From Strigamia acuminata (taxonomy: Eukaryota > Arthropoda > Chilopoda > Geophilomorpha > Linotaeniidae), in NCBI GenBank assembly GCA_949358305.1, contig OX442314.1, positions 21,445,060-21,509,059 of the forward strand: a stretch of 64,000 nucleotides of DNA, read 5' to 3'. Each line of letters starts with the position of its first letter. Positions within the stretch are counted from its first letter, which is position 1. The position numbers and the translations under genes are program-made. The notes beneath the pieces are model-generated. The model made no database searches. It worked only from the letters and a program-made list of their open reading frames with translations, and was not told the origin of the DNA. Shown here one piece after another: positions 2,239 to 42,267 of this stretch.

Positions 2239-2502
2239 AGAGCACATTAGACATACGATGCAAGAAAATCAAATCCTTTTTTACGTGATTGTGGCATGTG
2301 CAGTGGTGCTTGTCTGCTTTTTGGTAGCAGCAATGGTATTCTGTTGTTGTAACAACTCTAATTCAAATCCTATAGAAGATGTAGCACCTGTTGTCGACCC
2401 TGAAGAAAATGTTTTGATACGATCGGATTGAACCGCTCGCAGCTAGCGAACACTTAATTGGTTGAGAAACCACCGCCATCTTACGATAATTTAAAAATGT
2501 AA
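2239..2502 (+). pseudogene. Broken PPxY membrane-protein gene (cluster member 1)
   Basis: After an acceptor (ttattacag, ending 2238) an open frame gives a short ectodomain, a hydrophobic span from about residue 8 of the M at 2258 (FYVIVACAVVLVCFLVAAMV) and FCCCNN. This is the layout of the intact neighbours downstream. The frame hits TGA at 2429-2431. The family C-terminus EKPPPSYDNLKM then appears at 2464-2502 in another frame, directly after an in-frame TAA at 2455. Joining them needs two frame changes, at about 2430 and 2457, and no intron fits in that short space. No signal-peptide exon was identified. It is most likely a decayed paralog. The alternatives are a truncated protein lacking PPxY or sequence error. 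Confidence 0.7.
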
Positions 2503-3137
2503 AAATCTGAACATACATAAATAATTAAATGTAAAATGTAAAAGTAAAAAAATGTCTTTTTTTTATTATAAATTTTCGTGCAATACCTTGTTCAATTTAC
2601 GGTAAAATTTCAAAATTGAGTTCTGTACTCCGTATTATTGTATTTTTGCGAATGGCCGAATAATAGGTGGGAGATTCGGGAAGATTTGGTAAGATTCAGT
2701 ACCATTTTTTTTCCCAAAATTATACATTTTTTTCCAAATATTTTTATAAAACAAAAAAAAGATCAAAATATTAACAAATATATTTTATTTCTCTTGAACA
2801 CATGAAAGCCTATCTGGAGCGAGAAAATTCAAGTGAAAAAGATTCAGAATCTTTTTGGGATTCAGAAGATTCTGTTCAGGAGATTCAGAAATAATCTCAT
2901 GCAAATCAGCCCGGGATATTACGCGATATTGCGAGATCATAGCCAAATCTAAGATTCGGGATTCCATAATCATGAAGATTCAGAGGAATTCTGAAAGATT
3001 CAAAATTCCCGTGAGAAAGGTTCCGGCGATTGTCATACCCCGCGCAAATAAAACGTAACATGATATCACCTCTCATCACATCTCTGCTGTCCTTGCAATA
3101 AATGACATCTGGAAATTTTCTATTGTCGATAAACGAA
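2503..3137. other. Intergenic, nothing recognised
   Basis: AT-rich. A block at 2650-3000 is rich in the word agattcag/gattcagaa, a short degenerate simple repeat that creates overlapping spurious frames on both strands. No gene is supported before the MAM gene start at 3138. Confidence 0.5.
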
Positions 3138-6043
3138 ATGGCCAACTTTTCCATATGGTTTATAGCGTGCATCTTAGTGGGTTTTGTTTCAAACGGTGAG
3201 TTACAAACTATTACTAAAATACATAGAACAAAATAATTCTTATGATGTATTAGAAAATATATATACATTATAAATTAGATTCACACTCTCGATCTTTCGG
3301 AAAAGTTACTGCACCAGTTGATACTGGTTTCAGGCAGAGCAGTTATTTTAATGCTTGGCAAATTGTAAACAAAACTAACAACATGACCCAACCTATGCAA
3401 GGTAACTTTTAAAAATGTAGAAATAAATATAAAGTGGAACACAATCGATTATTAATAATAATTCCTAACGTTTTTAAATTTCGTTTCACGCAAAAGAGAC
3501 TTCCATATTTACCACCAATACTACTAACCAGGTACGCAGTGTTTACTACGTGCTTAAAGATTCCAGCGTTACTATTTCATTTTCGTACGCAATTTACCGA
3601 AAAAATTCACATTCCAAGACAAAATTAATACTTCAGCAAGAATACGATAACGGAACAGTAAATAAGATATTTGAAAGTCATGAAACAAATGGAAAAATGC
3701 AAACAAAATTGATTTGCTGTCCTCATGCTCAAATACCATACAGGGTAATTAAAGTTTAAGCTAGTATATAAGGAATTTAATAACAAGAAACAGTATTACA
3801 CCTTGCGGTTCATTAACTTAAACAAAACATACCATAATTCAAAATACCGGTATTTCAGTTTGCTTTTTACGCTGAAGTAACAGAAAACGACCAAATTGAT
3901 TTTGGCGAGATTGAAATGTTAAAAGTTCACGGTAAGAAAAAAAAAAACATCCTCTTGAAAAACAGAAATAACAGGATTAATTCGAATCAGGTTGTTTCCA
4001 AACATCAAGCACAGTCGAATGCAGTTTTGATGACCTTTGCGACTGGACAATTGAAACCAAAGGAACAGAGTGGAAAATTGCAGGCAAAAACGATCCGACT
4101 GTAACCAAACCTGGTAAATATACATCAATATCAACATTGCAGTATAACAAATATTTATTTGTTTATAATATCTACATTTCCTCACAGTCAATGATCATAA
4201 TGACAACTTTCTATCGCTAACTTACAACTCCAGCAATTCCCAACAACAAATCCAGTTGAGCGAAATCACAACAACAGCAATGTCCAATCATTCGTCCTAT
4301 TTGCAAATATCATTTGCATATTTTATTCTCTCTTCAACAACCTCTACACCCGGATTAAAATTAAAAATTACTCACCAAAACACTCACTGGATATTTGATT
4401 CTCGAAAAATGAGAACAGATACCCAGAATTGGAAAAATGAAACTATTTGTACAAACGTTGACACCAAGGTCAAATAAGTTCCTAACACTCGTACAATATT
4501 ACAAAATTTCCATAATAATAATCAAATAACCTAATTTTTAGAACATCTACACTGGCACCCAAGTTATCTTTCAAGGAGAGGTTCAAGAAGGAACTGCAAT
4601 TGGTCTTGACAATGTTACAGTTGGAGAATGTCTTAACAGATTAAGTCTCAAGTGTTCGTTTGACAATGATGTTTGTGGCTGGAGTATGGCTTCAACAAGT
4701 TATGATGCAGCGTGGGAAATAATAAGAGAATCGCCACACATCTCACCAAGAAATCAAAGTACCTTAAATTAATATATTTGTTTTGTTGTGTATTTTAGTG
4801 TGCATTTTTTCTTCAGACAACCCGTTTCTTCGAATTAGTCCAAGCAACGAAACAAAACAATTTGCGCGACTTTCAAGTCCTTTATTACTTGCTTCGAATT
4901 TTCTTCATTTTATCATGTGGTATTTTGTAAATGATAACCAAAAAGAAAATAGCACGCTTAAAATTGGATTGTCGTCGTCTTCTGCGCCATTTTCTCTGCT
5001 GTGGAGCTACGAGCGACGTGAAAATGTTAATGCACAATGGAGAGAAATTAATTTAAACATCACAGATATTCGAGAAGATTCCAAAGTTAGCGATAAATTA
5101 CTTTTTTAAGTTGGCTAACCTGTAATCATTTTTTTTTTACTTCAAGATTTTAATCAATGCCATGGTTCACCCAGGATCATATCTCGCGATTGACGATATT
5201 GATATTCTTTATGAAGGAAACAGGATTAATGATAAACCAACAAGTACTAACTAATAAAAAGCAATTCTTCGATCAAACTGCCCACATACCGTATTACCCC
5301 GCTTTAAGCTGCATGCCGTCGGATATGGCTTTACCAGGATTTTGGAATTTCAGTTTATACCGGCAAAGTGAAACATGCCGGTACAAGTGAAAAAGCTGGT
5401 GAATAATTACTCTGTATTGTTAGCATTTGAGCCTGAAATCTGAGTTTTCTTAATTTTCTGAAAATTATTACTAAAAATTTGTATAGATTTAGGCAGATTT
5501 CCTACTGTTATGAACGGGCTTTTATCGTTTGTGAACGAAGTTCATTCTTCCATAAAATGTGACAAAAAACATGTTAATTTTTTTAAATAAATTCGAAAAG
5601 TGAACGTTCATGAACTTGGAAAAAATTAGATAAACGCGAATGTGAACTTTGTAGGTCATGAACGCGAACTTGAGCGTGTTCATACTTTAGTGAACGAGAA
5701 ACAACACAGAAAACAGGGTAATAGGAAGAGACATCCAAATAGCATGATAAAAATCAGGACCCTATAATGAAGCAGTAGGCAAACTTTCAGTTACTACAAT
5801 TAATGAAAATTCAAATAAATATTTTCAGAAAGGATTGAAGATGATGACACTACTTCAAAGAACATACTTTACACAAGTATCGCAGCAGATGACCAAACCG
5901 CAACAAAATTAATAAACAAAAGTATCACAGAGACGAGATATCGTAAAGTATCTGGCAATGGAGAGAAAACGTTTCACATTTTACAAAAGGATTGTTTAAT
6001 CCAACTAATAACTGCATTTTTCATTTTGTGCAACCTTAAGTAG
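3138..6043 (+). CDS. MAM-domain protein, ten exons, secreted or GPI/membrane-tethered
   Basis: Exons 3138-3195, 3279-3401, 3497-3744, 3859-3931, 4015-4113, 4188-4468, 4542-4758, 4817-5085, 5147-5243 and 5829-6043 join in frame with GT-AG borders to give about 559 residues. Exon 1 is a signal peptide (MANFSIWFIACILVGFVSN). Three MAM-type modules follow. The first is divergent and ends FGEIEML. The second starts with ECSFDDLCDWT and ends AIGLDNVTVGEC. The third starts with KCSFDNDVCGWS and ends YLAIDDIDIL. MAM domains are adhesive extracellular folds found in receptors and matrix proteins. The last exon encodes an S/T/D-rich stalk and ends in a short hydrophobic run (LIQLITAFFILCNLK*), suggesting a GPI-anchor signal or C-terminal tether. 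The donor at 5243 (ACAA/GTACTA) is the weakest join. If it is unused, translation stops four codons later. Confidence 0.85.
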
Positions 6044-6354
6044 AATATTTGCTTGCATGTAAAGCAGTAAAGCAAATTCAATTAAGATTTTTAATATAAA
6101 AACTACTGCAACACAAATATATAAATAAAATAACATCTGAGTACGAAAAAAACCAATAATAATTGTATTTCACGCCCAATGGAAGTCAATTAGAGAAATT
6201 GTTGCCTATATACGGAAAACGGCTCTAAATCAACAGTAAATGAAAATTTAGCCAAAAAAATGTGAGGAAAATATTCCCAAGAAAAACCCAGGACCAAAAC
6301 CAAAGTTAATACCGTACACGCTACAAATAGTACGAGAACACAACGACAAGACTT
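6044..6354. other. Intergenic, nothing recognised
   Basis: AT-rich downstream flank of the MAM gene. aataaa-type hexamers near 6121-6127 may serve as its polyadenylation signal. No gene is seen. Confidence 0.4.
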
Positions 6355-6470
6355 GTGTTTTTAGCACATCTACACAGACATCCAAGTTTTTTCCAAGAAG
6401 GGGTTCTTACGAAGCAACTGCGATTGGTATTGGCAATGTTACATAAAGAATATCTTCAAATAAATTTGTT
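6355..6470 (+). pseudogene. Decayed duplicate of a MAM exon
   Basis: The sequence from the acceptor-like ttttag at about 6358-6363 runs parallel to MAM exon 7 at 4536-4650: acatctacac, ccaagtt, tttcaag/tttccaag, gaactgcaattggt/caactgcgattggt and gacaatgttaca/ggcaatgttaca all recur in the same order with small indels. The reading frame is broken by frameshifts and stops. It is a relic of a tandem duplication of the upstream gene. Confidence 0.7.
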
Positions 6471-7581
6471 CTTTATCGAATCATGTGCGATGTCAATGTA
6501 TTATGATTTTATCACCAGGTTAGGCAAAATTAGTCACCAATCAAGTAGCTAAAAGTCCAATTTGGAGGTGGCAAATTGGTTAACCTCAGATATTTGGCTA
6601 AATATTCAATTATAATTTTTAATTGATGCAGTTATGATAAGTCAAAAAAATCACATTTTGAATTTTGAATAAATTGTACAATGTGTTAGTATTATTTTTA
6701 CAAAATCAATTTCCAAATTTTGGCATGATGCGGGGAATTTGACTTTTCATTCGCCACACCTGTGGCCAGGAGTAGACAAAAATAAAAATAATTCCGGCGC
6801 CAGTTTCTTTTTCTCAAGAGCCAGCATATCTATTTTGCAAATACGAGCAAAGAAATTCAGACGCCAGGTAAACATTTTCAGGCGTCTTGGCGACCCAACA
6901 CCCGGTATTTGTCCACCCCTGCCCGTGACCAGCTGACCGCCTTAAAAATAGGTTGCCCACTTCTTTTTCCCGAAAATCAAAACGATAATAATAGTAGAAA
7001 TAATAATAATAATACGTACTCACTATTTGCGCAAAATGCAGTCCTCATCGTGATTCTATAAACAAACAAAAAAAACATAAATTTTCTCTTCTAAAAATTT
7101 CAATTCCAGTAATTATTACCACCGATATATTTTTTGTCAGGTAGTCTGCATAAAACTTACACGTCCTGCGATTAATAAAACTATAATGTGCCTTTGGTTT
7201 TTCCCTGTAACCAAACCCCGTTTCAAAGTACATCATTCGTCACATCCGCATGTTTTACTACACAGAAGTCATTCATCGCATTGCCAGGTAAGAACCTAAT
7301 CATTTCTATGTCAATATTAGAGCTACTGTATATTCAAAAATTACTCCTCATTTTCAAATTGCTTCGCCAATGTGAACAAACAGTATTCATTGTTTCCGAT
7401 AATTAAAATGGCCATGTTTATGATTAAAATAAAAATAAAAAAACAAGATGTGGGAAGCAAATGCAAAATGGGAAGTGGTTTCTCAATACCCCTATTCATT
7501 TGACGTTTATTAAAAACATTCCAGGAACCTAAATATTCTTATCTATACTTTTTGAAACTCAAATGTTTATTCTAAACCTTT
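6471..7581. other. Intergenic, nothing firm
   Basis: AT-rich sequence without a supportable gene. A stretch at 7182-7287 ends in a good donor (gccag/gtaaga), but no compatible downstream exon was found. It could be an orphaned first exon of a lost cluster member. A taataat simple repeat lies near 6990-7015. Confidence 0.4.
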
Positions 7582-7997
7582 ATGGCTCGGTTTTCAATAA
7601 ATCCACATCTGTTTCTCCTCTCATTTTGCATACGAGGTAAGTTTCAGTATCAAGTTTTGAATTTTCATTTAAATTTATCATTATTTTTTTTTTTTTTACA
7701 TTTATTCAAGGTGTTTTAGCATCAAGTGATATCGTTTTGCTGTATTTACCACCAGTATCAGTATTTGCTTTATTTGGAATTGCTATAGCCTACGTAATAT
7801 CTCAGATTTATTGCTCATCTTGTTGTAAAAAATCGCAAACTGATCTCGTGTGTCACGTGAACGCGACTGAAGAAGAATTTCAACTTGGAAACATTAATGA
7901 AACGTTATTAATAAACATACCACTCAATGCTAGCGATTCGGTGCAACCGGGGTACACACCACCACCGTCGTACCAATTTCTATTCCTGAATAAATGA
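7582..7997 (+). CDS. Single-pass membrane protein with PPPSY tail (cluster member 2)
   Basis: Two exons, 7582-7636 and 7711-7997, joined in phase 1 give 113 residues. Exon 1 is a signal peptide (MARFSINPHLFLLSFC). The mature ectodomain is only about 12 residues. The membrane span (about residues 30-50, SVFALFGIAIAYVISQIY) is followed by CSSCCKK, likely palmitoylation or juxtamembrane cysteines. The tail ends GYTPPPSYQFLFLNK. PPxY is the classic ligand of WW domains in NEDD4-family ubiquitin ligases, and YQFL also fits the YxxPhi endocytic signal. The small size, cysteines and PPxY recall Shisa/WBP1/VOPP1-like transmembrane adaptors, but I do not recognise a specific ortholog. Very similar to the genes at 8734 and 9956. 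Confidence 0.85.
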
Positions 7998-8733: not shown

Positions 8734-9087
8734 ATGGCTCAGTTATTTCTGTATTTGTGTTACATTTTGTCACTTTACATTACAGGTAAGTTGATAATGT
8801 GGAAATGCAGTTTTGATTTATGTAGTGTTAATGAGTTGAACTTTTAATTGACATTAGAAGTTTCGGCGTCAAATGATGTTTGGATTTGGGCGCCAGCAAT
8901 GGGATATGTGTTTTTTGGTGTAATAGTAGTTTATGCCATTGTAAAATCATGTTGTATGATATTTTGTAAAACACCGGAAAATACTATTAATGTGAATGTT
9001 AATACAACACCGATAAATGTAAGCAAGCGAATAAGTGATGTTCCACCTCCGTCATATCAAGATCTGTTTCCTTCCTTTCCTAATTAA
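8734..9087 (+). CDS. Single-pass membrane protein with PPPSY tail (cluster member 3)
   Basis: Exons 8734-8785 and 8858-9087, phase-1 junction, 93 residues. Exon 1 (MAQLFLYLCYILSLYIT) is a signal peptide. The ectodomain is about 10 residues (EVSASNDVWIW). The span APAMGYVFFGVIVVYAIVK is followed by SCCMIFCK. The short cytoplasmic tail is N/V/T-rich and ends SDVPPPSYQDLFPSFPN. It has the same exon plan, spacing and terminal motif as its neighbours on each side, so it arose by tandem duplication. Predicted role, by motif only: an adaptor offering PPxY to WW-domain ligases, with an overlapping YQDL sorting signal. The start at 8734 was chosen over the ATG at 8730 because it gives the signal peptide and the correct phase. 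Confidence 0.85.
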
Positions 9088-9955
9088 TGAATCTAATCAT
9101 TTTGTAAACATTGGAGTATAACTAAATAATTGACTTGCTCATACTATTGTTATCACGATAAAACTCTTTATTACTAGGATTTCATATCAATCTCATTTAC
9201 CACACCTTCAAACAGTCCAATATTATCTCAAGTGGATAAAAAAATCTAGAAAAAATTATACTTGAAATTTTTTTTATTTAAATTTTTTTAAAAAAAATTA
9301 AAAATTTGTAATTTAAGAAATTATATTTTGGAATTTTCGTGGAACTGTGGAGATTTTTGAGACGTCCTGAACCCCTGATGCCGGCATTGTGCATGGCTGA
9401 ACATTTATTCAAGAACTGATTAGATAAACTGACATTTCATGACAATTTTCTGGAAAATCCAATCAGATATTAACTCAAATCACTTGGAATATTCCAAACA
9501 CTCCTATTACTACGCTTAGACGAAACATAACACCTCTTAATCAAGTAACTTTGCACTTTTTGTGTGCTATTGCCACAGGATTCTAGACTAGTGAAATATA
9601 TTATGCGAAATACCGAGACAGCTTGACCCTCAAACTTGGAAACGGATGTATTTACAACATTGAAACTAAAAAAAGGTAATCCGTTTTGTGTTAATCTTTA
9701 ACCAACCAAATCTATAAATAAAAAAAATGGAAATTTGTGTCCATTCATCCGGTATGATTATTCAAACTGACACACTTGGTTTTCCCACAATCAATTCCTG
9801 TTTTCTAACATAAAGCCACCTCCGCAGATAACATTTTTCTAACTGTAGTTTCTTCGTATTGGCGAGACCTTTATCAACAGTAAATAATCTGCTAGGCGCG
9901 TCTAGCAGAACATTTTTAAAAATAACTCCAGAGATGCAATGTAAACAGATACAGA
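9088..9955. other. Intergenic, nothing recognised
   Basis: AT-rich with an A/T homopolymer-rich block at 9240-9330. No coding feature is supported. Antisense frames here are unsupported. Confidence 0.5.
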
Positions 9956-10379
9956 ATGGATCATTTTTCAATTCAACGACCAATTTTTTTCCTTTTGCTT
10001 GACATTCTAGGTGAGTTTGAATAAATCCAATCTAAATTAATAAAAACAATTATTATCATCATTATTTTTGTCACCTTCATTTTCATCAGGTGTAGTTTCG
10101 GGTTCAAATACTGACGTTTGGCCCTACCTGCCACCGACAATTGGATTAAGTTTATTCTGTTTCGTTGTGCTTGTTGTCATCATTCAGTCATGTTGTGCGT
10201 CGTGTTGTCAGAAGCGAGAAAGTGTTGCTAACTGTTCCATTAATGGCACCAGTGAACCATTTGACTATGGAACCAATCAATCAACATCAGCACACATTCC
10301 TTGTTGTTCTAAACATTTTGTGCAGCCGGGATTTACTCCACCACCGTCGTATCAAAATCTTTTTCCTGATGAATGTTAA
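9956..10379 (+). CDS. Single-pass membrane protein with PPPSY tail (cluster member 4)
   Basis: Exons 9956-10010 and 10090-10379, phase 1, 114 residues. The signal peptide MDHFSIQRPIFFLLLDIL shares the M-x-x-F-S-I opening with member 2 and with the MAM gene. The short ectodomain (VVSGSNTDVWPYLPP) precedes a span (IGLSLFCFVVLVVIIQ) and the block SCCASCCQK. The tail has two N-x-S/T-like sites, irrelevant if cytoplasmic, and ends VQPGFTPPPSYQNLFPDEC, nearly the same as member 2 (VQPGYTPPPSYQFLF). Members 2 and 4 are therefore the closest pair. Polyadenylation-type aataaa is absent, but aatataaa occurs at 10420-10431. Confidence 0.86.
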
Positions 10380-10624: not shown

Positions 10625-11523
10625 ATGGTGAATGTTGGATGTACATTTTTCACTCTTCTTTGGGTGATTTTCACTTTCATTCAAGGTGATTATATATATT
10701 TAGCGTATATAATGGGTTTTGTATTCGTTTAAGTTTACATATACACTAGTATCTAAATGCATTATGATTTATTTCAAGTTTAAACATGAAAAACAAAACA
10801 ACCCTTTCGTAAGACTAATACCAGAGTAATTCAGCAATACCTGTGCATTCATATATTCATTTTATTATATTATTTAACTTACCGCGCTCAATCACCTGAC
10901 TCCATCGTAGTTTTTGTCACTTCAATCGGCAGCCATTTGCACTCACCTAATTGGCCCAAAACCCGTCACGTGCTCAAAACCAAATAAATAATCGTCGAAA
11001 TTTGTTTCTGAGTTCATACATAATTTAACTCAAAAATTTTGTTCAGTTTTTAAATTATTTTCCTTTTCAGTTTCTTAATATCATTTATTTTAATCCTATA
11101 GAATCGCAATCCTTTCGCCCCGATGATGGCAACAACCACCACAAACATCCTCATCACCATGGCCACAGCAAAATGGGCGCGTTTTATGTCATCGCAAGCG
11201 TTATATTTATATTCTTGATCTTACTCTTTATTTACTATTGTTTGCGAAAACATGCAAAGAGGCATCATCCAAATTGCCCGGCGCACCGTAGAAATAGGAC
11301 CACTCATCTAAGATACGCCCGATTTCCGATGTCAGCCGACAATTGCCAATATTGCTCCACACACTATCAACCACCGGCAATGTACGGATCTGTTGCTACA
11401 TCAAATCCTAACGCCAGCACGATGCCGATACCAAACGTAACGATTGCCCCGCCGGACTACAGTTACCTTTATCCACAAAAACCAGTTCAACCGGGACCGG
11501 GAGTCCATCAAATGACAAAATAA
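10625..11523 (+). CDS. Single-pass membrane protein with His-rich ectodomain and PPDY (cluster member 5)
   Basis: Exons 10625-10685 and 11102-11523, phase 1, 160 residues. The signal peptide is MVNVGCTFFTLLWVIFTFIQ. The ectodomain contains NNHHKHPHHHGHS, a histidine cluster that could bind Zn or Cu. The span AFYVIASVIFIFLILLFIYY is followed by CLRKHAKRHHPNCPAHRR (basic and His/Cys-rich). The tail carries a second C-x2-C (NCQYCSTHY), QPPAMY and the PPxY-type APPDYSYLYPQKP, in which YSYL again fits YxxPhi. It differs from members 2-4 by its longer tail and metal-ligand-like residues. An alternative acceptor at about 11070 would lengthen the ectodomain. The assignment to the cluster family is by architecture. 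The function is unknown. Confidence 0.83.
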
Positions 11524-12042: not shown

Positions 12043-12975
12043 TTAAACATCTGGCGAACTCATGTCCTCGCTACTGCTACTGCTTCCGAACAGATCATCG
12101 TAAGATGGCGGCGGCTCGCCGTTGTTGGGCAAAGCGCACGCCACAGCAGTCAAAGTAGCCGAAGTCATCACATCCTTGAAAGGATTAGTTAAATCCTCCA
12201 CGCCGGACGAGGACGAGGAAACGGAAGAAACGTTCAGTTCCATAATCCTTTGGAGTCTTTCGCATCGAAGTTGCGCCACACTGGACACCTGAGCGGACGG
12301 TGCCGACTTGACACTTGTTTCTGAGCTGTCCGAAGTCTGCCTCGGAAACTCGCGAAATATTCTCTGGTTCTGAGCAGACGTCGGTTGCGACACGATGGAT
12401 TCTGTCGAATGGTAGGAAGGCGGAGGACTGTTGGCTGAAGCGATGGTTAGGGTTACACTTTGGTAAGGGTCGGCGCAAAGTGTCTGTTCCGATCCCGAAT
12501 CGATACTCAAGCAAGGAGGCGGCGTGGGCTCTATCACTGGAACAGGCGTCTCGAAAGTCGACTGACTGTGAGTCCGCTCGCTCGCTCGACTAAGTCTTTG
12601 TACTGTGATGGGGCGGTTGTTGGGCCCGATGATAGTGGCGCTGCCGTTGTGGAGGCCGTTGCTGCGAACGGATCTCGTTCTGTTGAGGTTTCGAGCGTTG
12701 TTGGTCATGTTCGGATGAGGTCTGGCCGGCGACGACACGTAGGTTGTTAGAAATGCTAGTTGCGTCATGGGTCCGCCCGTGGTGGGTAAAATGCGCAGTC
12801 GTTCACGATTTATTTCCGATAATTCAAGTATTCGAGAGAATCGCGAGGAGGAGTCGAGACGGACGAGAATGAAGTTCCAGATGTTGCGGCAGCACACGTG
12901 ACACAGCCATAGAACCACGAGACCGACCATGAAAACGGCGCTTAGGATGCACACTTTCCCCGTCACTGTAATCAT
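12043..12975 (-). CDS. Large PPxY membrane protein, 310 residues (cluster member 6)
   Basis: A single long open frame begins MITVTGKVCILSAV. A hydrophobic span (about residues 8-27, VCILSAVFMVGLVVLWLCHV) runs directly into CCRN and then a tail of about 280 residues rich in S/T/N/P. The tail holds TPPPC, SPPPSYHS (about residue 183) and the terminal EPPPSYDDLFGSSSSSEDMSSPDV. This gives two PPxY motifs and an acidic Ser cluster resembling CK2/trafficking sites. It has no cleavable signal peptide as drawn. However, the codons ATT ACA G just after the ATG form an acceptor (attacag), so the exon could instead be spliced in phase 1 to an upstream signal-peptide exon, even to the exons of the gene at 13239-15205. 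GC is higher than in the surroundings. Probably an adaptor scaffold for WW-domain proteins. Confidence 0.8.
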   Translation of the reverse strand: MITVTGKVCILSAVFMVGLVVLWLCHVCCRNIWNFILVRLDSSSRFSRILELSEINRERLRILPTTGGPMTQLAFLTTYVSSPARPHPNMTNNARNLNRTRSVRSNGLHNGSATIIGPNNRPITVQRLSRASERTHSQSTFETPVPVIEPTPPPCLSIDSGSEQTLCADPYQSVTLTIASANSPPPSYHSTESIVSQPTSAQNQRIFREFPRQTSDSSETSVKSAPSAQVSSVAQLRCERLQRIMELNVSSVSSSSSGVEDLTNPFKDVMTSATLTAVACALPNNGEPPPSYDDLFGSSSSSEDMSSPDV

Positions 12976-13238: not shown

Positions 13239-15205
13239 TCAAGATTTATTGGCTTCCACAGTCGCACCGAACAACGATCGGTAGGATGGAGGTGGTTCAT
13301 CACTGGTCCCGTCTGCAGAGTTCTTGTTGGCAACAGAAGAATAAGGCGGAAGACTGTTGCTGCGTAAGACGCCAATATGCCGCTCACGATTAGTTAATTG
13401 AGCTTCATCGTCAAGAGATTCCATGGGTAAGCTTAAGGTTGGCGAGATTTCACTGTGATCATTTTGATTGGCCCGTTGCTGGATGAATGTTCGGCAGCAC
13501 CAACAGGCAAAAGCTCCTGACAAGGCAATGATGAGAGATGTGAATAGAGCGATGATAAAAGCACCGAAGTTAAAAGACGATGATTTGTCATCCCACGGAT
13601 TGACTGCAAAGAAAAATATTTAAATGTTTACTAAATTTGGATAATTTAGAGAAATTGATGTTTTATTTTAAGTTGAAACAACAACAGTTGTTTGCTTTGT
13701 GCGCGTAAAAATATCACTGAATATGAGGACAGGATAAAAGGGTTGGCACGAACATGGAACCGAAATAATCTGGATAAATAAATTACAATTCTTGTCTAAT
13801 AAAACTTTCTTTAGATTGCGCGCACGACATTTGAGTGCAGAGACGATGAGATGGAGGGAAAATCGGCAGGGCGGTTCCAGAAAAGTACAAGGGCCCCTTG
13901 TACTTTTCTGGAATAAAAATGGCCACCCCTTGTCAAGGGGTGGCCATTTTTATTCCATTTTTCACACAGAAATTGAATTTTTTGGTAAAAAATTAAATTT
14001 TTTGTGAATTTTTTGGTAAAAAATTCAATTTTTTGTGAATTTTTTGGTAAAAAATTCAATTTTTGTGAATTTTTTGGTAAAAAATTGAATTTTTGTGAAT
14101 TTTTTCGTAAAAAAATTGAATTTTTTGTAATTTTTTTTTACGTAATAGTTTGTTTTAATATTTATCAAACCTTGAGACACAATTCGCCTTAAGTTTCAGC
14201 AAATAAAAAAGTTTATTAAAATAAGTTGCCTAAAATATCATGGAAATGTTAAAACTAATAAAACGCTGCCTCGAGGTTGTTGCACTTAAATCACAAGATG
14301 ATTGATAACACAAAAATGCAGGTATTTCACTAGGGGCAACAAAATATCCCCCTCCCCCCCCCAAAAAAAAAAAAAACAAAAAAAAAAAAAAACATCCAGA
14401 CAACAAGCAACAAGTGTATGTGGCTAACATACAAATAAACTATTGCAGAAAAAACAATCCAAGGTTTCGATTGTTACGTAATCCATTGCAGCTATTTAAA
14501 CTCAATTAATTTTAAACCATCACCTCCACAATTGATTCTTAAAATGTTTTTGAAACTGAACACTTGTGCCAATAGATATTATGACGTGATATTGTGCAAC
14601 AAATATGAATAACTTATATTATGACTAAGCACATTTCCAAGAAGAACAACAGAAATTTAGATTCTTTTAACTTACATAAAGTAAAAGCACACAATTGTGC
14701 AAAATGTGTTTACATGTGTGTAAATACTGTATATAAATTAATTTTGAGAGTAATTTTTCCCGATGGGAGTATTTACGGCCATAAAAAGTAAAAACAACAC
14801 AAATTCACACAACAAAACTGAAATAAAACTTTCGTGTCAATTATCATTCGTGTATCGTTTGAATTTCTCTTTTTCTCACCTGCAGGTGTTGGTGGTTGTT
14901 GTGTGGTTGTTGGTAAATACTTTGGTTTTAAATCTGATCCTGGCCAACTTTCACATTTACCCTTAAAAAAATCTACAAATCCACATTTTTTCTTGTACGG
15001 TTTTCCTTCTTTAAAACTGTCATCTGTAAACAAAAAAAAATAAGAAAAGAAAAATTAATTGATTTTTGAAATATTATTTATAAAAATAAATACGAATTCG
15101 TTGCGCACAGTTGGTTGACAATTTACCTGAGTCGTAAGTCGCAGAAAACGTTAGTAATCCGTACAAATACATTGTCAACAATACAACTTCACAACACCTG
15201 ATCAT
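13239..15205 (-). CDS. Three-exon PPxY membrane protein with Cys ectodomain (cluster member 7)
   Basis: On the minus strand, exons 15205-15127, 15023-14880 and 13603-13239 join in phase 1 to give 195 residues. Exon 1 is a signal peptide (MIRCCEVVLLTMYLYGLLTF). Exon 2 encodes a 48-residue ectodomain with two cysteines in a K/C/F/G-rich core (KKKCGFVDFFKGKCESW) and a T/Q/P stalk. Exon 3 encodes the span (FGAFIIALFTSLIIALSGAF), ACWCCRTF, then a tail with LPPYSSV and the terminal EPPPSYRSLFGATVEANKS. This is the only cluster member with a separate ectodomain exon and a stalk, which makes it closest in plan to Shisa-type proteins. The intron 13604-14879 contains large palindromes. The gene lies tail-to-head behind member 6. 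Confidence 0.87.
13875..13956. repeat. Two abutting near-perfect palindromes
   Basis: Palindrome 1 (13875-13913) has 19-bp arms based on ttccagaaaagtacaaggg around one central base. Palindrome 2 (13910-13956) has 23-bp arms based on ggaataaaaatggccacccc around one base. They share the ggaa junction. RNA from either strand would fold into two adjacent hairpins. Probably a foldback or MITE remnant in the intron of the gene at 13239-15205. Confidence 0.92.
13971..14133. repeat. AT-rich tandem repeat, unit about 31 bp
   Basis: Five units of gaattttttggtaaaaaatt followed by caattttttgt, with single-base variants (aaattt, caattt, gaattt). Each unit is itself an imperfect inverted repeat. Intronic. 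Confidence 0.88.
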
Positions 15206-17032: not shown

Positions 17033-17640
17033 TTACTGTTTTGACTGTGTTCTTGATGAAGTCCCAAAAATCTCTTCGTAAGGTGGCGGTGGTTCTTCGT
17101 CAAAAGGCGGTGGCGGATCACCGTATAAAACTGTAACCGGTCTAGCTTGCAAGTTACTAGATGGCACCATGACCATGACGGGTACCTCTATCTGAAAAGT
17201 ACCGCCGGTGATTGGCAGAAGTGGGTGATGTCGAGGTACGTTTGATGGACGGGAAGTTGGAACGACTCGCGAACTGGAGGAAGAGCGCACTTTGACAGCG
17301 CCATTCTGCACGCTGGCTCTGCGCATGCTCGATGGCGGATGGGAGAAGTACGGCTTGTGATGATGAGTGCTTATTGCAGACAGTCGTCGTCCGTCTTGGA
17401 CTTGGATTTTGTTCAAACTTAACAATTGTTCCAACGTGTGTGGTTGTGCTTGCATAGGAATGTTTTCGTCTAGTGTTGGCGACGGTTGGTCTTGTTCTCG
17501 TGTCGGTTTTTTAATGCATTTTGTTATTTTTCTCATTATCCAAACGAAGAATACCAGAGAGATGAAGGTGAATATAAAGACGAGAACTGACATGACGGAA
17601 TTGATAAGATTGATTTTCACGCCCTCAATAACTTCATCGC
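17033..17640 (-). CDS. PPxY membrane protein, terminal exon, at least 202 residues (cluster member 8, partial)
   Basis: The open frame starts at an acceptor (ttccag, exon from 17640) in phase 1, the family's usual junction. It gives a short acidic ectodomain (DEVIEGVKINLINS), a span (VMSVLVFIFTFISLVFFVWI), a basic patch (RKITKCIKKPTR) and a long S/P/H-rich tail ending GDPPPPFDEEPPPPYEEIFG then TSSRTQSKQ. The PPPPY with YEEI is the PPxY/YxxPhi combination. PPPPF just before it looks like a mutated duplicate. The tail contains RRxS-type sites (RRLS, RRAS), plausible basophilic kinase sites. I could not identify the signal-peptide exon upstream on the minus strand, so the 5' end is missing. Confidence 0.8.
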
Positions 17641-20071
17641 CTGGAAATATAAATCAGAGAAGTTTTTGAAGCGAAACTTCATTTTTTTTTTTTAAATTTA
17701 TTTATTTAGAAAAAAAAATTTAAAAAAGAAAAAGAATTTAAAAAAATTAAAATTAAAATCAGTTTATTTTTATTTCTGAGAATTTTGAATTTCTTCTTTG
17801 TTTTACTGCGCATGCCTAGCAAGGTGTGTTTCAAAGGCTTAACAATGGCGGCCACAAGCGAGTGCGCCCAGGTTGGGCTTATCTTAAGTGCTTTTACGAT
17901 TTTTAAATATTTTATAACGTGCATATGATACGTACAATTGTTTTTCTTAAAATGCATTAAAGTATGAATTTTTTAAACCAAATTTAAACCGTAAAACAAT
18001 AAATAGGCGTGTTTTCAAATCTTATTTTCCATCATGATGTTCAAATCTTTGCAGCAATGTTTTTGCAATATTTTTTCCAAATAAAAAAAAAATAATAATA
18101 ACATTGAAAATAAAAATACGAACAAAAATATTTTTAAAATAAATAATAATAATTTACTACACAATTACGTATCTAAAAATATCTACGGAAATAAATCGAA
18201 ATAAGAAATTTGACGCAACATCATTAGGCCTAAACAGTAATCACAACTATGGTTCGATAAACACAAAACAACTAACCCTAATTAGATTCTTTCCACTTCA
18301 ATTTGCGACATAAAATCATTCTTATCACATCCATTTCAATTGATATCTTCACCGCGACACGATTTTCACAAATCTCTTCTTTGAAAAGCCACTGCGGACG
18401 TTGGCTTTCCAACACGACTCCATTTTGGTAGGCGTGGCATTCGCATTACGTCATCTAAAAATAATGTCTAATCAATACTCAAGAGCGGAATGGCAAAGCG
18501 AATGTATAGTGCCTCATTTTTGCAAATTCCGTCAACAGAATTGCCACCAACGAACCTATTTTTTTCTTAAAAAGATAAAGAAAATAAAAAAAAAACTGCA
18601 AACAATGTTTTTAAATGGTTAAATTGCGTGTTTTATTCAATTTATTCACGGGAAATGTGCAAACCGAATTAAGTGTGTCTGAGTGAACGATTTTACTCCA
18701 GACACCGAGCGACCAATTAAATATTTAATGGCTTAAGAATACAGATGTCGTAAAAATAGCCGCAAATCGTGATTAATTAACGGATCCGTTACCGTCGATT
18801 ATATAAATAATTAAATTAAAAGTTCATTAATTTTTCACGCGTACAGTTGAAAATAAGTGTGTGATTGACATTTAAAGATGCTGTAGATCTGGGTGTGACC
18901 GACTTGGATAATTACGAGCTCCAACGTTAACAGAGATAAGCAGTGAAGCCACTTTTAGCGCTGAAAACATTAGTTTTAGTAAAATTAAAATTCACCGTAG
19001 AAAATCAATCAAATCTTATCAATATTATTTTTCTATCTCGCTCAAATTAAACATTGAAAGCTCCTGAACACCTTTATTCAAGTTTATTGCCACAGTATTA
19101 AAATAAAAGCTAACATAAACGTAAAATTAATTAACAAAACAATCTACTCAATTACAGAAAAAAAATAAAACAATAAATTCTTCGACAACGTACACAGTAC
19201 AACATGCAAAACACTTTGTGTAATTGCACTACATCTTCTAAACAAACCAAATTTTAACTACAATTTCTCTACCGAGTTAATCTATAATCACATTTTTCTA
19301 ACATTTTAAATATATATATACAGCAACAAATAGTTTGAGCACACACATACAACATGGACATAAATTGTTAAGCCTATACTTTCGTTTTCTACACAGTAGA
19401 CATATCTAAACAATTGCTTTGGCTTTTCGATTTGCAATCTTTTCTCAACTCTCTTAAATTTCAATTTTTCAACCTTGTTTCTTACAAAAACCACATACAA
19501 AAGGAATGGAAGACACATAACTACTCTTGCATGTAGCAATGACCAATAAAACTGTGCACTTTTCATCTTCATTTCTCAAGCAGTTTATGTAGCATTAATC
19601 TCCGGTCAGAAAAAAGTAATCCTTTTGACATTAGATATAAAAGAAAAATAGCAATTTCAAAGCATAGATTGGTTATATAAAAATAAAAAATAAAAATACA
19701 TGTTGTAACATTCGCACAAATGCCATTAATCTTTAAAATATCAAAGTATAGGTTTAAAATTATAAATTTTCAATCGTATTTGATAGTCAAGAGTTTTCGG
19801 GCGTTGTAAATTCACGTTAACAATTGGAGAGTTCACTTTTGGAGTCTTTCTTGCACAAATTGGTGCACAAATTGCAATTTTTCATACTTTATTAGTGTTG
19901 CCATGACAGTAACACATTCGATTTTAATTAATCAATTATAAAACTTGCGTATACCGATGGCATTTCAAGTGGAACAGAAAAAAAGCAATGTAATTCCAAG
20001 TGTGAACTCAACTGTAAATTTACGGTTTTTGTGTTTTTGACTTGCAGCTGCATCCAGAGTCCAGACTGATG
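17641..20071. other. Intergenic, no supported gene
   Basis: 2.4 kb of AT-rich sequence. It should contain the missing first exon of the gene at 17033-17640, but no candidate combined a signal peptide, the right phase and a good donor. The open frames at 17706-17957 and 19306-19572 (both minus) are unsupported. Confidence 0.45.
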
Positions 20072-20362
20072 TTACAAGAGAGGTAAAATGACTTCCCATC
20101 CTGATCCCGCCATGTCAATTTCGGCACTGTGACTGACGGATGTAATCGAATAAATTGGCCCTTGAGTGGGTAGTGTTTCCGGTATGCTCGTAGCATCGTT
20201 TCGTGATTGTGGAAAAAAATGATCGTTACACGTGCATCGTTGCATTTTATTTTGTTGCGCACAAAAATGTCGGTTAAGTAGACAGAGTAGATAGGCCAAA
20301 CCTACAAAAGATGCTAAACCAATGCCAAAACGAATAAGAAACGTTTCTATTTCGTCAGACAT
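20072..20362 (-). CDS. Small membrane protein of the CTC subfamily (cluster member 9)
   Basis: The ATG at 20362 lies immediately after an acceptor (gtttttcag/ATG), so the 5' leader is spliced or trans-spliced on. The 96-residue product starts MSDEIETFLIRFGIGLASFV, whose hydrophobic span continues to LAYLLCLLN, followed by RHFCAQQNKMQRCTCNDHFF. It lines up with the neighbour at 21058-21351: x-TFLxRFxIGL, then the span, a basic K/R stretch and R-x-CTC. It has no signal peptide and no PPxY. The tail is S/T-rich and ends GSGWEVILPLL. It is either a divergent cluster member that lost PPxY or a separate small-membrane-protein family. I do not recognise an ortholog. Confidence 0.7.
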   Translation of the reverse strand: MSDEIETFLIRFGIGLASFVGLAYLLCLLNRHFCAQQNKMQRCTCNDHFFPQSRNDATSIPETLPTQGPIYSITSVSHSAEIDMAGSGWEVILPLL

Positions 20363-21057: not shown

Positions 21058-21351
21058 TTACACGCTGAATAAAGGTATGGCCATGTCCGACGAGCACACT
21101 CCAGGTACACAATGCATTGTATTCGGTATGATCTCTGCAGAACCTTCTTTGATTTCCTTCTGGTAATTGCGCGAGTCGAATTCAGGCGGAGGTGGTATAA
21201 GATAATTTCGTGGCGGACATGTACACGGCGGCCTGTTCAATTTCTTCACTCTAAGCAAATATGATCTAATGCTGCACCACAAAATAGCCAAAAGTAAAAG
21301 AATCCCGAGTCCAATGGCAAATCGGAACAAAAAAGTTGCAGTTGCATCCAT
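21058..21351 (-). CDS. Small membrane protein of the CTC subfamily with PPPPEF (cluster member 10)
   Basis: 97 residues from the ATG at 21351. An acceptor (cttaaaccag) lies 17 bases upstream in the leader. The N-terminal sequence MDATATFLFRFAIGLGILLL leads into a span to LAILWCSIRSYLL, then RVKKLNRPPCTCPPRNYLIP and PPPEFDSRNYQKE. The paired cysteines (CTC) after a K/R stretch match the paralog at 20072-20362. PPPPEF occupies the place of a PPxY with Phe instead of Tyr, so WW binding would be expected to be weakened. The two genes are adjacent, have the same orientation and are about 0.7 kb apart, consistent with tandem duplication. Confidence 0.75.
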   Translation of the reverse strand: MDATATFLFRFAIGLGILLLLAILWCSIRSYLLRVKKLNRPPCTCPPRNYLIPPPPEFDSRNYQKEIKEGSAEIIPNTMHCVPGVCSSDMAIPLFSV

Positions 21352-24300: not shown

Positions 24301-25354
24301 TCAGCAAAACCAAACAAAGTCTTTTCAGTAATTTGATCTGTTCGTTACAAAGCAAACATTACATTACGTGCCGCTCTAAGCCAACACTCCTGAGTGCACA
24401 TTTTTTCCTTTAAAACTCAGTTAAAATCCTTTTATCTATCCGCTCTCCACGTTGCAATTCGAAAATTTTCCAAATCAAGTATCTATACAGACGAAAAACA
24501 ACTTTTTGTCTGTAATAATCTGCTCGATTGCTGAGATTGCAATAAGACAAGAAAGCAATACTGAAAATCGATAATTTGTGAGACAGATAAATTCACATCA
24601 AAACTAATCACGCCGAACTCAAAGTATTGATTTTCACAGCATCGCACAACTTTATTTATTTATTTTTGAAATTGAAAAAAAATATCCATTTTTATTAAAT
24701 AATACCTATAAACCGTTGTTATTAAAGGCTCAGAAAATCCGGGAGAAAATGGCACCCTTTTACGGCGGCTTTTCCGCGTACGGAAAGCAACAACCGCTCC
24801 TTCTAATCCGGAGATTATTTCAGATTTCAGCTTTACAACATTAAACATCGAACAATGACTGAACGAGTCATTTAAGAAAGCAATTTCACTGTAATACCGA
24901 ATATTTATTTACCTACTTTACTTTTTTATTATGGGCTCGTCACTAGTGCTCATTGAAATAGGATATTATTGAACAAAGACCAGGTGAGCCATGTTATTTA
25001 TTACATTTTCCTTTGTATTAGTTAAACTGAAATATTTTAATATTGCAATGCACGTAAAACTTACTCTCTACTCCTTTAAAAGTTAACCTTCTATTAATAA
25101 CTTAATGTAAGTAAATAGAAACTGGCCAGAGTGTGACTCAGAGAGCTCTTATATGGCTCATAAGTTGCTTCTAGTAACATTAAAACCCTTATTTATTAAT
25201 GACATCATTCAGAATATCTTGATGGACTTCTACCGAATTTTATTTGCTCTCAAAATGAAGTGATAAATTTATTTCATTTTGTGACATCACTAACATATCA
25301 GTATATATAAAAGAAAAAAAAGTAATTTTACCTTATCTTGTCTATACATTCTAG
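21352..25354. other. Four-kilobase gene-poor stretch
   Basis: AT-rich sequence with no exon I can support on either strand. Short open frames (e.g. 21642-21833 minus, 24660-24848 minus, 23214-23411 plus) have no family motifs or splice partners. It may hold regulatory DNA for the flanking minus-strand genes. A gagagaga run is at about 22133-22143. Confidence 0.5.
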
Positions 25355-26239
25355 TTAATAATGATATAAAGACAATAGGAAGATAAATTGAATAAAAACT
25401 GACCTTGAATCCACAACTTCATCGTATGGAGGAGGAGGTTCATCATCAATAGGAAGTGAAGTATCCATGTGATTCACATTATTGGTTTGCTGTGAACACG
25501 GTGAAGTCAAAAGATTTGGGCAGCATTTCTTCGTGAGATCTTTGAAGCAGTAACAACATGCCCAAAATAATTCCGGGTTCATACACAAAATGCCGACGAA
25601 AACGAGAAACACAAGAATCACGACGATCAAAGCTGTCCAGCCTATGTAGGAAATGTCGTCACCTGATAAGAGTTAGAAAAGAAAACATGTAAGAATTAAT
25701 CAAAATAAAAAATTGAAGGGAAAAATCCCTTTTGCAATTCACTTCTGACATTTCATCATATCAAATAATAAAATAAAATAAAAAAAAATAAGAAAAACAG
25801 CATTGGCTGATAACATTTAACTCATTATCTTTCGTTGTTTGAGAAATTGACAAGAAAAAGCAATACTGTCATTTAATAAATTACATATAACTTCCATTCC
25901 TTTTGCAAATTGCTAATTGCAATTCCACATTGAGTATTGACTTGGAACTATGTAAATGAAATAATTGTTTGCTTAGCCTAAATACTGCTGTGAGAAAATC
26001 GCACTCATTTGAAAATCCAAACGTTAAGACTGTCCAAAAATACATTTCAACTCACATATTAACAGCTTTTGTTCAATCATTCCGTAGGAAATTGTGCCAA
26101 AACTTGTTAATTATCAACATCTGTCGATAATCTGCAGGTGTTTACTTATTTTCTAGAAAAAATTACCTTGAGCTAGGCCAACTCCGAAACCACTGAAGAA
26201 CAAAACGACAAACAAAAAGCGAATAAAAGAGAATTCCAT
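25355..26239 (-). CDS. PPPPY membrane protein with Cys-rich juxtamembrane region (cluster member 11)
   Basis: Minus-strand exons 26239-26167 and 25662-25355, phase 1, about 126 residues. The signal peptide is MEFSFIRFLFVVLFFSGFGVGLAQ. The mature ectodomain is very short (GDDISYIGW), followed by a span (ALIVVILVFLVFVGIL), then CMNPELFWACCYCFKDLTKK and CC. This is the highest cysteine density in the cluster. The tail carries DDEPPPPYDEVVDSR. A good donor follows VVDS (AAG/GTCAGT, exon end 25404), so the drawn last residues (SVFIQFIFLLSLYHY) may be intron read-through, with a further 3' exon I could not place. YDEV is compatible with YxxPhi. Confidence 0.8.
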
Positions 26240-26986
26240 CGGAGTTTCAATCTCATCATTCCCGCATCTAAAAATAACTGATCTCAACCGACGACTATTT
26301 CAAGGTGTCTTAAGAACAAGACGCGTCATCTGAGTGAGTCGACCGTCCGTGGTCACGAGATGTAATTTGATATGTTATCTTAGGGAGAAAAGCTTTCTAA
26401 TTCCCTTACAACAAGGAAGTCAAAACAAAACATGTTTGGACATTTGATCGGCTGCACTGCACGGCTCCCTATCTGCCATGACAGTTTTGATTAACTACGG
26501 GAGCGCGTTAGAACCATTGTGAATTTTCGAATGCGAAAATAAAACAAAATCGAATTTCAACGTTTATAAACAATAAATTTGAAATTTAGAACTCGCAGTT
26601 CGTGTTCTGACACGCACACACTGTAATTCACTTAAGCAATTTCATGTATTTGTGTATTTAATTGAATATGAAATAAGTTGGACGATTTCAAATGTGATTC
26701 CGTGAGAAATAAAAATCATGTACGGAGGTGCAGAAGGAATATCACAAAATGGATAGAATGTTTTGCTTTCGCTCTTCGTGTTTTAATATTATTTCGGTTT
26801 ATATTTTCGTTCCAGACTCTTCATTTCGACGAGTTTTTGTGTAATAAATACGAAATAAATTTTAAAATAAAATTTGTGCATTTTTATTAAAAAAGGGGTT
26901 TGAATTGAGGGTACATCACAAACTTCCATTTGCCAACTCAACCAAATCCTATCTACGTCATTCATCTGAGTGGGAGGGGTCTTAAG

Positions 26987-27564
26987 ATGGCGATGAGGAT
27001 GGCAACAATTATAGCCTCTTCTGTTGTTTTGTTTATATTTGTTCAACAGTCTCAAGCTTATCTTCCCGGACGACATGGTAAGAAATACAAAGCGCCATCT
27101 GGCGCTGATAAACATTTTTTGTTACAAATTTAATTTCTATTTTAAGTTGACTTTAAAAAGAAAAGGAAAAAAAAAATTTTCAAGTGTTTCAACAAGATTA
27201 AATCAAAGCTGTTGCTCAAATGAATGTTGTGAGAGGAAAATTAACTGTAGTCAAATAATCACAATAATATATTTATTTACGTGTAAAAAATCGGCAGTTT
27301 TCCGGAAATAAATTTCATAATTTTGTTAATTCCATTTTTCCCTCTCTCTCTTTATTTCCAGCTATTAGCCCGTCAGTTTCCGTCGAATTAATGGCAGGAA
27401 TGGTGTTGCTACTGATCTGCTTTCTCGTCCTACCAGCTATCTTGGCATTGTTGTGTTTTTGTGCGTATGTCAAACTACAGTCGCATTGTTCTAAACCAAA
27501 ACCCAAGATTTCCAGATTGAAACTCGAATTCGACGAGCAGAAAGAACGCTTGCTTTACATCTAA
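26987..27564 (+). CDS. Small membrane protein lacking PPxY (cluster member 12)
   Basis: Exons 26987-27077 and 27362-27564, phase-1 junction, 97 residues. Exon 1 is a signal peptide (MAMRMATIIASSVVLFIFVQ, then QSQA). The ectodomain is about 20 residues (YLPGRHGAISPSVSVELM). The span GMVLLLICFLVLPAILALL is followed by CFCAYVK and HC. The tail is short and basic, ending KISRLKLEFDEQKERLLYI*, with no proline motif. The exon plan, phase and juxtamembrane cysteines match the PPxY genes, so it is probably a family member whose tail has been lost or replaced. It is head-to-head with member 11: the two ATGs are about 750 bp apart and share a promoter region. It might act as a dominant partner without ligase binding, but that is only a guess. 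Confidence 0.78.
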
Positions 27565-28315
27565 ACATTCAAATCCCACCCAAAAAAAAAAAAACAATAC
27601 TTTTGTGATATATTACTTAAAACCATTAGTGTGAGTGTGTGTACTTCCGGTTGTAACAAGAACTTGCCTCTATCTACTGGGTAGAATCGGTAAGTCATCT
27701 TTCATTTATCCATATTAGTAATGTAGTTAGAAAAATAAACAAACATTGAGTGTTAACAGAAGTATGGTCATTTTAAATTTAATCTCCATCTGCATCTGCA
27801 TGTTTTGTAGATCATGTGATTCAAGTTCCAACTTCCCTCGTACAAATTTCACGCCAAAAGTGAAAGTAAACTAATAATTCTATGCTCGTGATTGTGACCC
27901 ATGATGTAATTATCCTGTACTCAGCCTTTGTGTCATTGTATACACACCATTGTACATTTTTGTTATATATGTATATTTTTGGTGGACATTTTTCTTCCTC
28001 AAGATTTTCCTAGTGTCTGTCTCTAGACTAACAAATCACTGTAGACTAACTAGCATGTGCGCCTGTTTCTATTTACTCATGTCAAATATTGGAAATAATT
28101 TTGTGTAATGTGATGTCAATTTAGTTAATAAAAGATTAAAAATAATAACCACAGCATCCTGTTTATGTTTTTGTTGGTTAAATATATAAAAGTGATTCAC
28201 GTGTGGATTTTTCCACATTTATTGATTTATTTATTTATTGATAATTAATTAATTTTTTTAAAAAAAAAAATATGTCGCCTTGTGTCTGCTCTTTATCTTT
28301 TCATCTAGACAAGAC
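27565..28315. other. 3' region and intergenic
   Basis: No gene is seen. The sequence at 27585-28150 is typical 3' UTR-like DNA, with aataaa-type signals near 27733 and 28127. Confidence 0.5.
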
Positions 28316-29712
28316 ATGTTCCACACTTTCCTAACAAATGTGCCCGTTCTGTTTCAGAGAATCAATTTTCTTGCATCTGGCAACTCATTCTTGTTACAAC
28401 GTAGCTTGTGTTCGCTCGGTTTCGTTCTACCGAGGGGCGAACGCAACCACGTGACAGGTGACATCATCAAAACATTGCAAATGGAGATGCAGAGAAGACA
28501 AGCTGCCCAGTTGTGCTGCACTTTCATCCTGTGCAGCCAACTGAAAGGGGCAGTTGCTTCAATAGTTGATGAGCCAGGTAAATAGTTCAATTATCTCAAC
28601 GCATGCGCAATTAATACAATTCTAATCTGGTTGTGTGGTGATTGAATGAGATGATGTAGACTATCGTCAAACTATCCTCATAATACCCAATTATTTCTCT
28701 TTATTTTTTTAAAATCTCACTTAATTGTATGAAAACAATCAAATTGTTAACAATTTCTATCGATGCGAATGAGATAAATAACCAATTAAATATATAGAAA
28801 TCGTAGATGGATGCACAGTAATTGTTTCTCATCATTTAGAAATTAACGAAGTTTACGTAATTGTGTAATCCAAATATATGCTTTTATGAGTATTGATTGG
28901 GTCGATATTTCATTATGACACTTCATAAATAATTTATTTTATACGTTTTTACCTTTTATTGGACATTTTTATAATATTTTTGTTGATTTAGTGCGGTGGT
29001 CAATACATAAATGTGACAGATTTGATTTATAGAAAAATAAAATAAAAATAAAATAATTAATTATTAAATATGTTTCACCGTTTATTTATTGTCCTCAGGA
29101 TGGAATCCCAAATCATCGACAGAACTGTTTTTGGGCCTCCTTCCATATCTACTTGTCTTCGTTGTCGTCCCCATTTGCCTTCTTCTTGTGTGTTGGTGTT
29201 CTAAATACGTCCTTCGCGTGTGCTGCAAACGTGTCCACCAACAACACACGCCCGCGTTTCTTCATCGATTCTTCCCGACCACGACACCGACCCCGACCCC
29301 GACACCAACATCGACGGCCGCACCGACATCACTCGCAGTCACACAACCGCAACAGCAGCCACCGGAAACGCTCTTCACCAACTACACCAACTACAATCCC
29401 ATGTTAGAAGGAGAACTAGACTTGTTCCCCATAAGTTACAACACCGAAGAATCTCGACAGCAACAGTGCCGAAGAAACCAACAATTCATTAGTGTCACGT
29501 GCAACTTCATACGAGCAGAAGCCATCAGTCGGACCAACGATAGTGTCAACGAAGAGAGTCGAGTTGACGATCCGCCGCCATACTACCCGGAAGACCCGCC
29601 GCCATCTTACGACACGTTATATTCGGAAAAGATCATCGAAGACAACACGGCTTCGTCCAAAGGAGAAATGGAAATTGACAATGGAACTGAAAACAGTGTT
29701 TGTGTCAATTAA
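28316..29712 (+). CDS. PPxY membrane protein with Cys ectodomain and two PPxY-type motifs (cluster member 13)
   Basis: Exons 28316-28577 and 29099-29712, phase 1, 291 residues. Exon 1 encodes MFHTFLTNVPVLF…, a weakly hydrophobic N-terminus, and an 87-residue ectodomain with QRSLCSLGFVLPRGER and AAQLCCTFILCSQLKGA (four cysteines). Exon 2 begins GWNPKSSTELF, followed by a span (LLPYLLVFVVVPICLLLVCW), then CSKYVLRVCCKR, a PTPTPT/Q-rich tail, and RVDDPPPYYPEDPPPSYDTLYSE with an acidic end. The initiator is uncertain: an acceptor-like catctag lies just before the ATG at 28316, suggesting a spliced leader. Three overlapping alternate frames of exon 2 are shadows created by the PT repeats. It is the largest ectodomain in the cluster. 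Confidence 0.8.
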
Positions 29713-42245: not shown

Positions 42246-42267
42246 AACAATCTATGCACAAAACTCC

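Follow-up and report, generated by a model that had tools for sequence, protein, structure and literature searches.

Single membrane adaptors that carry a PPxY (PY) motif, such as Comm, NDFIP and WBP1L, are known, and in Drosophila comm, comm2 and comm3 are grouped in a small cluster, which would be the nearest precedent for an array of such genes. According to published reports, the PY motifs PPCY and LPSY of Comm act with Nedd4 (PMC12101832, PMC5578492) and are required in Drosophila for ubiquitination and clearance of Robo1 (PMC12101832); contrary to this need, work cited in one of them found the interaction with Nedd4 dispensable for regulation of Robo at the midline (PMC5578492). WBP1L is reported to link NEDD4-type ligases to CXCR4 as an adaptor, and binding of a PY motif to relieve autoinhibition of the E3 ligase (PMC11399591). 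STMC6 proteins (Shisa, WBP1, WBP1L, VOPP1, CYYR1, TMEM92) are defined by six conserved extracellular cysteines (PMC6125347), and proteins of this type bind WW proteins or ligases (PMC6125347, PMC11399591). A tandem array of small genes predicted to encode membrane proteins with PY tails is described here from chromosome 1 (C1) of Strigamia acuminata. The analysis began from a window of 64,000 nucleotides (C1:21445060-21509059); positions are those of the window, and negative ones lie to the left of its start. The array is known here from the genome sequence of a single species, and all exon models, with their first exons and starts, are predicted.

The window and 100 kb on each side make up a contiguous 264 kb with no N in it, which was scanned for open frames of at least 45 amino acids with PPxY after a 19-residue stretch of mean hydropathy of at least 1.9. 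Twenty-four such frames were identified, all from -54,634 to 29,712 (84.3 kb; about 21,390,425-21,474,771 of chromosome 1), and none was present in the other 180 kb. Six 10-kb samples taken elsewhere (L028-L033) contained none, nor did any of 20 first-order shuffles of the cluster sequence, and the control motif Y.PP after a span gave six frames within the cluster. Fifteen of the frames lie to the left of the window, across 54.6 kb, which makes the array about three times larger than the 27 kb first proposed for it.

Genome-wide searches in the S. acuminata assembly (237,517,015 bases) also pointed to this place. The DNA pattern for PPPxYxxLF had 32 matches, 12 of them in the cluster, and its reversed form, used as a control, had 22 in the whole genome. 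For PPxYxxL(F/Y)P, 16 of 29 matches were in the cluster; as the backward control of this pattern was inflated, with 17 matches on one strand and 161 on the other, the weight is placed on position, the cluster being 0.04% of the genome. Of the cluster matches, three for each pattern fall in remnants. Two of the 13 matches off the cluster were read and proved to be a gene pair on C4 (5.1254-5.1293 Mb; L027, C4:5122001-5132000) with a span, cysteines and the tails PPKYDDLFP and PPTYEELFP, whose ectodomains appear longer. A genome search with one of the C4 genes matched itself alone at E<=1, and all matches of searches with one member each from two groups of the array were at cluster places.

The topology was examined in 29 proteins, namely the 24 PPxY proteins, three small span proteins of the window without PPxY (genes I, J and L) and the two C4 proteins. 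Lys and Arg were more frequent in the 15 residues after the span than before it in every one of them (93 against 16 in total), which places the PY tail in the cytosol, a prediction by charge only. At least two Cys stand around the inner half of the span in 24 of the 29, and by inspection the ectodomain is almost nil in most members, only a few residues. The array members are thus predicted to be very small single-pass membrane proteins with a cytosolic PY tail. Among the 24 PPxY proteins, 19 have the extended form PPxYxx(L/I)(F/Y). Many array tails share PPPxYxxL with TAPPPAYATLG, an ENaC peptide whose structure was determined together with a WW domain of Nedd4 (PMC8509885).

Two gene designs were observed. 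A signal-peptide exon ending in phase 1, firm or possible, exists in ten of the 24 PPxY genes. Eight of these are in the window, where one of the exons is tentative and the other seven are firm, and two further candidates lie upstream, at -47.1 and -37.3 kb. None was found for the other 14, which are the gene at 12043 and 13 upstream genes, the upstream search having covered, in defined stretches, phase-1 exons 37-200 nt long that have a fair donor; most of these 13 have an ATG directly before the span. The single exon plan of the original prediction therefore fits eight or nine of its 13 places (7582, 8734, 9956, 10625, 13239 with three exons, 25355, 26987, 28481 and, tentatively, 17033) and does not extend to all. 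At least eight further genes in the array or at its edge, noticed by inspection, encode a small span protein that has no PPxY (genes I, J and L, and at about -55.8, -51.7, -45.7, -33.4 and -31.5 kb).

Self-comparison of the sequence revealed segmental duplications. The stretch from -29.8 to -24.0 kb is repeated, in pieces 80-94% identical, at -20.7 to -12.9 kb, that from -21.8 to -20.8 kb at -11.8 to -10.7 kb (87%), and that from -10.7 to -7.6 kb at -1.4 to 3.5 kb (pieces of 85-92%); the 3' part of gene C (8734) with its downstream DNA has a copy about 57 kb away (89.5%). Searches with tblastn detected at least eight remnants, at about -48.8, -29.7, -21.6, -20.9, -20.7, -12.0, -1.4 and 2.2 kb, and together with the duplications these show gene birth and death by duplication. 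Nine paralogue pairs, which share members, were compared. Ks exceeded Ka in seven (Ka/Ks 0.15 to 0.50, Fisher 2e-6 to 0.024), the single ratios being rough since Ks was above 1 in four of these seven; the pairs B/C and U7/U9 were dropped from the Fisher tests because Ks was saturated. This indicates purifying selection in several paralogue pairs. Duplications, constrained pairs, charge topology and frame enrichment together bear out the proposal that these single-pass proteins form a set which has expanded locally and is diversifying.

Other sequences were carried along in, or inserted into, the same region. A pair of gene fragments on the minus strand (-26774..-26165 and -17618..-17011; loci L014 and L015) lies inside a segmental duplication at 94% identity; they presumably resemble an ionotropic receptor, one piece having no Pfam match. 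An expansion of ionotropic receptors is reported in the genome paper on S. maritima. Between two array genes there is a long terminal repeat (LTR) retroelement (L016, -6402..-1630) with an open frame of 1416 aa, whose identical 168-base ends suggest a recent insertion.

In Pfam scans all 24 PPxY proteins, two of them also as longer models, remained below every cut-off. The sub-threshold matches included WBP-1 (E 0.0028, gene G at 13239), RCR (0.017), Comm (0.053) and CYYR1 (0.42); as other sub-threshold matches were to unrelated membrane families, those to PY adaptors are taken as likeness of form. NCBIfam (three proteins) and PDB (one protein) gave nothing useful. Membership in WBP1 (PF11669) was rejected, with a best score of 18.7 bits for gene G against a cut-off of 28.1, and the genome search for this family gave two matches, each of them outside the cluster and short of the cut-off. 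Commissureless (PF15957) was rejected likewise (14.2 bits for one member, cut-off 27), with no match in the cluster and a best E of 0.51 outside it in the genome search, and so was CYYR1 (PF10873; 11.4 bits for one member, cut-off 31). The genome has one Shisa_N match over cut-off, on C3, and none in the cluster. The six-Cys ectodomain of STMC6 or Shisa-like proteins was not seen by inspection, although upstream exons may have escaped detection. The Shisa or WBP1 membership raised at the outset thus found no support. No family named VOPP1 was among the Pfam scan results of the 24 proteins, with no direct comparison made.

In form, the array proteins resemble STMC6 proteins in the single span and the proline-rich PY tail, but the ectodomain of gene G has two Cys and the others mostly consist of few residues. 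Commissureless (Drosophila comm and comm2) is likewise short and single-pass, with cytosolic PY motifs and no Cys-rich ectodomain, and its pairing of motifs recurs in two array members (-34.8 and -32.2 kb), which lack the extended form and have LPxYxxL(F/Y) together with PPCY. PRRG1-4 and yeast Rcr1/2 are also small membrane PY proteins, which bind NEDD4 or Rsp5; unlike PRRG proteins, the array proteins had no Gla match in the Pfam scans, and RCR matched only one of them, below cut-off. TMEM207, a small membrane PY protein without a Cys-rich domain (PMC6125347), and the small herpesvirus membrane PY proteins (PMC5849660), likened here by description only, appear in these papers as single genes, unlike the array. 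In the openly licensed papers, no tandem array of two dozen PY adaptors with one extended PY signature was described among the matches listed, and no paper was found in that literature on Strigamia with commissureless or with PPxY; neither PPxY nor commissureless occurs in the passages covered from the genome paper on S. maritima. Comm homologues outside insects were stated in 2017 as not found (PMC5578492).

Candidate partners were revealed by a profile search of the genome, with 44 exon-level HECT matches at E<=1e-5 and 28 WW matches at E<=0.01 (25 over cut-off), all of which are lower bounds. On the same strand, HECT matches stand together with four WW matches at C3:24.3226-24.3252 Mb, with three at C6:4.587-4.592 Mb and with two at C5:5.671-5.674 Mb, and possibly with one, about 12 kb away, at C1:32.296-32.313 Mb. 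We infer that S. acuminata has three or four WW-HECT ligases, which we take to be Nedd4, Su(dx) and Smurf.

It is rather probable that the array encodes tandem-expanded adaptors, similar to Commissureless and WBP1L, which would recruit WW-HECT ligases to membrane cargo; this is favoured because of the reports on Comm and WBP1L and the ENaC-like PPPxYxxL tails. The span and the short outer part would decide in which membrane compartment the protein sits and would associate with the cargo, and the PY tail would dock onto a WW domain of a ligase of the Nedd4, Su(dx) or Smurf type. Docking may relieve autoinhibition of the ligase, which could then ubiquitinate the cargo (and the adaptor) and send it to endosomes, as reported of Comm with Robo1 and of WBP1L with CXCR4. 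Duplication that retained the tag and varied the rest could give many cargo or tissue specificities over few shared ligases. Expression, WW binding, ligase identity, relief of autoinhibition and cargo are the presumed parts of this mechanism.

The same tails could serve other ends. The main rival, in our view unlikely, is that they act as brakes or triggers of the ligases, membrane PY tails causing WW-HECT ligases to ubiquitinate themselves or to be sequestered, and so setting the ligase level in each cell type. PRRG1 drives NEDD4 self-ubiquitination via PPXY (PMC11753899), CYYR1 promotes WWP1 degradation (PMC11399591) and herpesvirus membrane PY proteins lower Itch (PMC5849660), and many PY proteins facing few ligase loci would fit such a role; it leaves unexplained, however, why spans and outer parts diversify when most members share one end motif, and all of the sequence evidence is common to it and to cargo recruitment. 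Tethering of other WW proteins, of the WWOX or Yorkie/YAP type, at membranes seems less likely still. WBP1, VOPP1 and TMEM207 do bind WWOX through PPxY (PMC6125347), and 18 of the 28 genomic WW matches are not beside a HECT match, but the extended PPxYxxL recalls the ENaC ligand of Nedd4, even if other WW domains could bind it too. PPxY is also a known late domain (PMC8402826, PMC6874086), and small proteins with little else in them might work as budding tags that shed vesicles via Nedd4 and ESCRT. This we regard as improbable: no capsid-like part was seen in the array genes, none of the 24 proteins had a Pfam match above cut-off, and the only retroelement read sits between two genes, as an insertion. 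That unrelated small genes have acquired PPxY tails by coincidence, which the original prediction had named as its refutation, is hardly credible. The weak similarity between groups outside the motif and the neighbours without it, at least eight, would agree with coincidence, but the genome-wide concentration of the motif and the 24 frames against 0 elsewhere contradict it, as do the excess of Ks over Ka in seven pairs and the segmental duplications.

Several points weigh against recruitment of ligases to cargo as the account of the whole array. PY proteins can equally be substrates, decoys or ligase inhibitors. Five of the 24 PPxY proteins lack the extended motif, and in view of the span genes without PPxY the tag alone does not account for the array. 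In favour of recruitment, the PY core in eight chosen pairs was identical at 51 of 63 positions against 153 of 416 in the rest of the tail (Fisher 4e-11), but this count overstates selection on the motif, since every protein had been chosen for its PPxY and some belong to more than one pair. Similarity is clear inside groups; once the motif had been masked, z>5 was reached in only 17 of 406 protein pairs, of which ten lie within obvious groups and seven link different groups, so a common origin of all groups is not established by this comparison, though the clustering makes a single origin likely.

A further step, which can be put forward only tentatively and is rather doubtful, is that the array is a combinatorial cargo-selection locus of a myriapod lineage, with dozens of interchangeable membrane front ends on the same ligase tag. 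If true, a few WW-HECT ligases would be aimed at different receptors via these front ends. Substrate-receptor expansions of cullin ligases follow a comparable logic; the array would instead be built on PY adaptors. If the proteins act as proposed, the same tag with different front ends would offer a natural experiment on the evolution of ligase specificity, young duplicates, old ones and dead copies standing side by side in the array. The locus would also bear on whether Comm-like regulation exists in non-insect arthropods.

All 13 places listed in the window by the original prediction (here genes A to M) exist. That most of them are PPxY genes stands for nine, in which a span is followed by an in-frame PPxY (7582, 8734, 9956, 10625, 12043, 13239, 17033, 25355 and 28481..29712); the place at 2239 is a remnant, and those at 20072, 21058 and 26987 have no PPxY. 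In remnant A (2239..2500, +) the ATG-span part is open, a frameshift follows and PPPSY is out of frame; it is 68% identical to an open-frame paralogue at -9025..-8756. Gene B (7582..7997, +; exons 7582-7636 and 7711-7997) encodes a signal peptide, one span and the tail TPPPSYQFLF, and was matched by tblastn with exon 2 of gene D (E 1.5e-16). Gene C (8734..9088, +; exons 8734-8785 and 8858-9088) has the tail VPPPSYQDLFP, and gene D (9956..10379, +; exons 9956-10010 and 10090-10379) the tail TPPPSYQNLFP. A His-rich ectodomain and the tail APPDYSYLYP were found in gene E (10625..11523, +; exons 10625-10685 and 11102-11523).

Genes F to K are on the minus strand. Gene F (12043..12975) is a last or only coding exon of about 310 aa with PPPSY twice, the last as EPPPSYDDLF; no signal exon of its own was found in the stretch searched, and it could start at its own ATG or share the exon at 15205. 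That exon (15205-15127) encodes the signal peptide of gene G (13239..15205), whose middle exon (15023-14880), by inspection symmetric 1-1, places a two-Cys ectodomain between signal and span; its exon 13604-13239 encodes the span, LPPY and EPPPSYRSLF. Gene H (17033..17643) has a span, PPPPF, the tail EPPPPYEEIF and a tentative signal exon at 18970-18916. The paralogues I (20072..20362) and J (21058..21351) are small single-span proteins, each of a single coding exon, with neither a signal exon nor PPxY. Gene K (25355..26239; exons 26239-26167 and 25661-25355) has a Cys-rich juxtamembrane part and EPPPPYDEVV.

On the plus strand, gene L (26987..27564; exons 26987-27077 and 27362-27564) encodes a signal peptide and a span without PPxY. 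Gene M (28481..29712; exons 28481-28577 and 29099-29712) carries DPPPYY and DPPPSYDTLY, 28481 being a better start than the 28316 given before. Between A and B lies a MAM-domain gene (3139-6050, +; PF00629, E 3e-17) with a signal-peptide exon; a second copy of its first-exon region lies at -8.7 to -7.6 kb, and by inspection its hydrophobic C-terminus could be a glycosylphosphatidylinositol (GPI) signal.

Elsewhere in the window, a possible remnant of a DNA transposon transposase was noticed by inspection at 840-1610, adjoined by a 20-base tandem repeat at 1662-1802. Just past the right end of the cluster there is a minisatellite (30073-30558) with 15.6 copies of a 31-base unit. Three similar direct repeats, 921 bases apart and with the same open frames, were found at 40100-42300, the first two being near-identical. 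Finally, many small exons at 48500-63600 encode APNAYSPDKS...SFGAKIKDP...VPG repeats, which we take to resemble SHIPPO/ODF3-like proteins.

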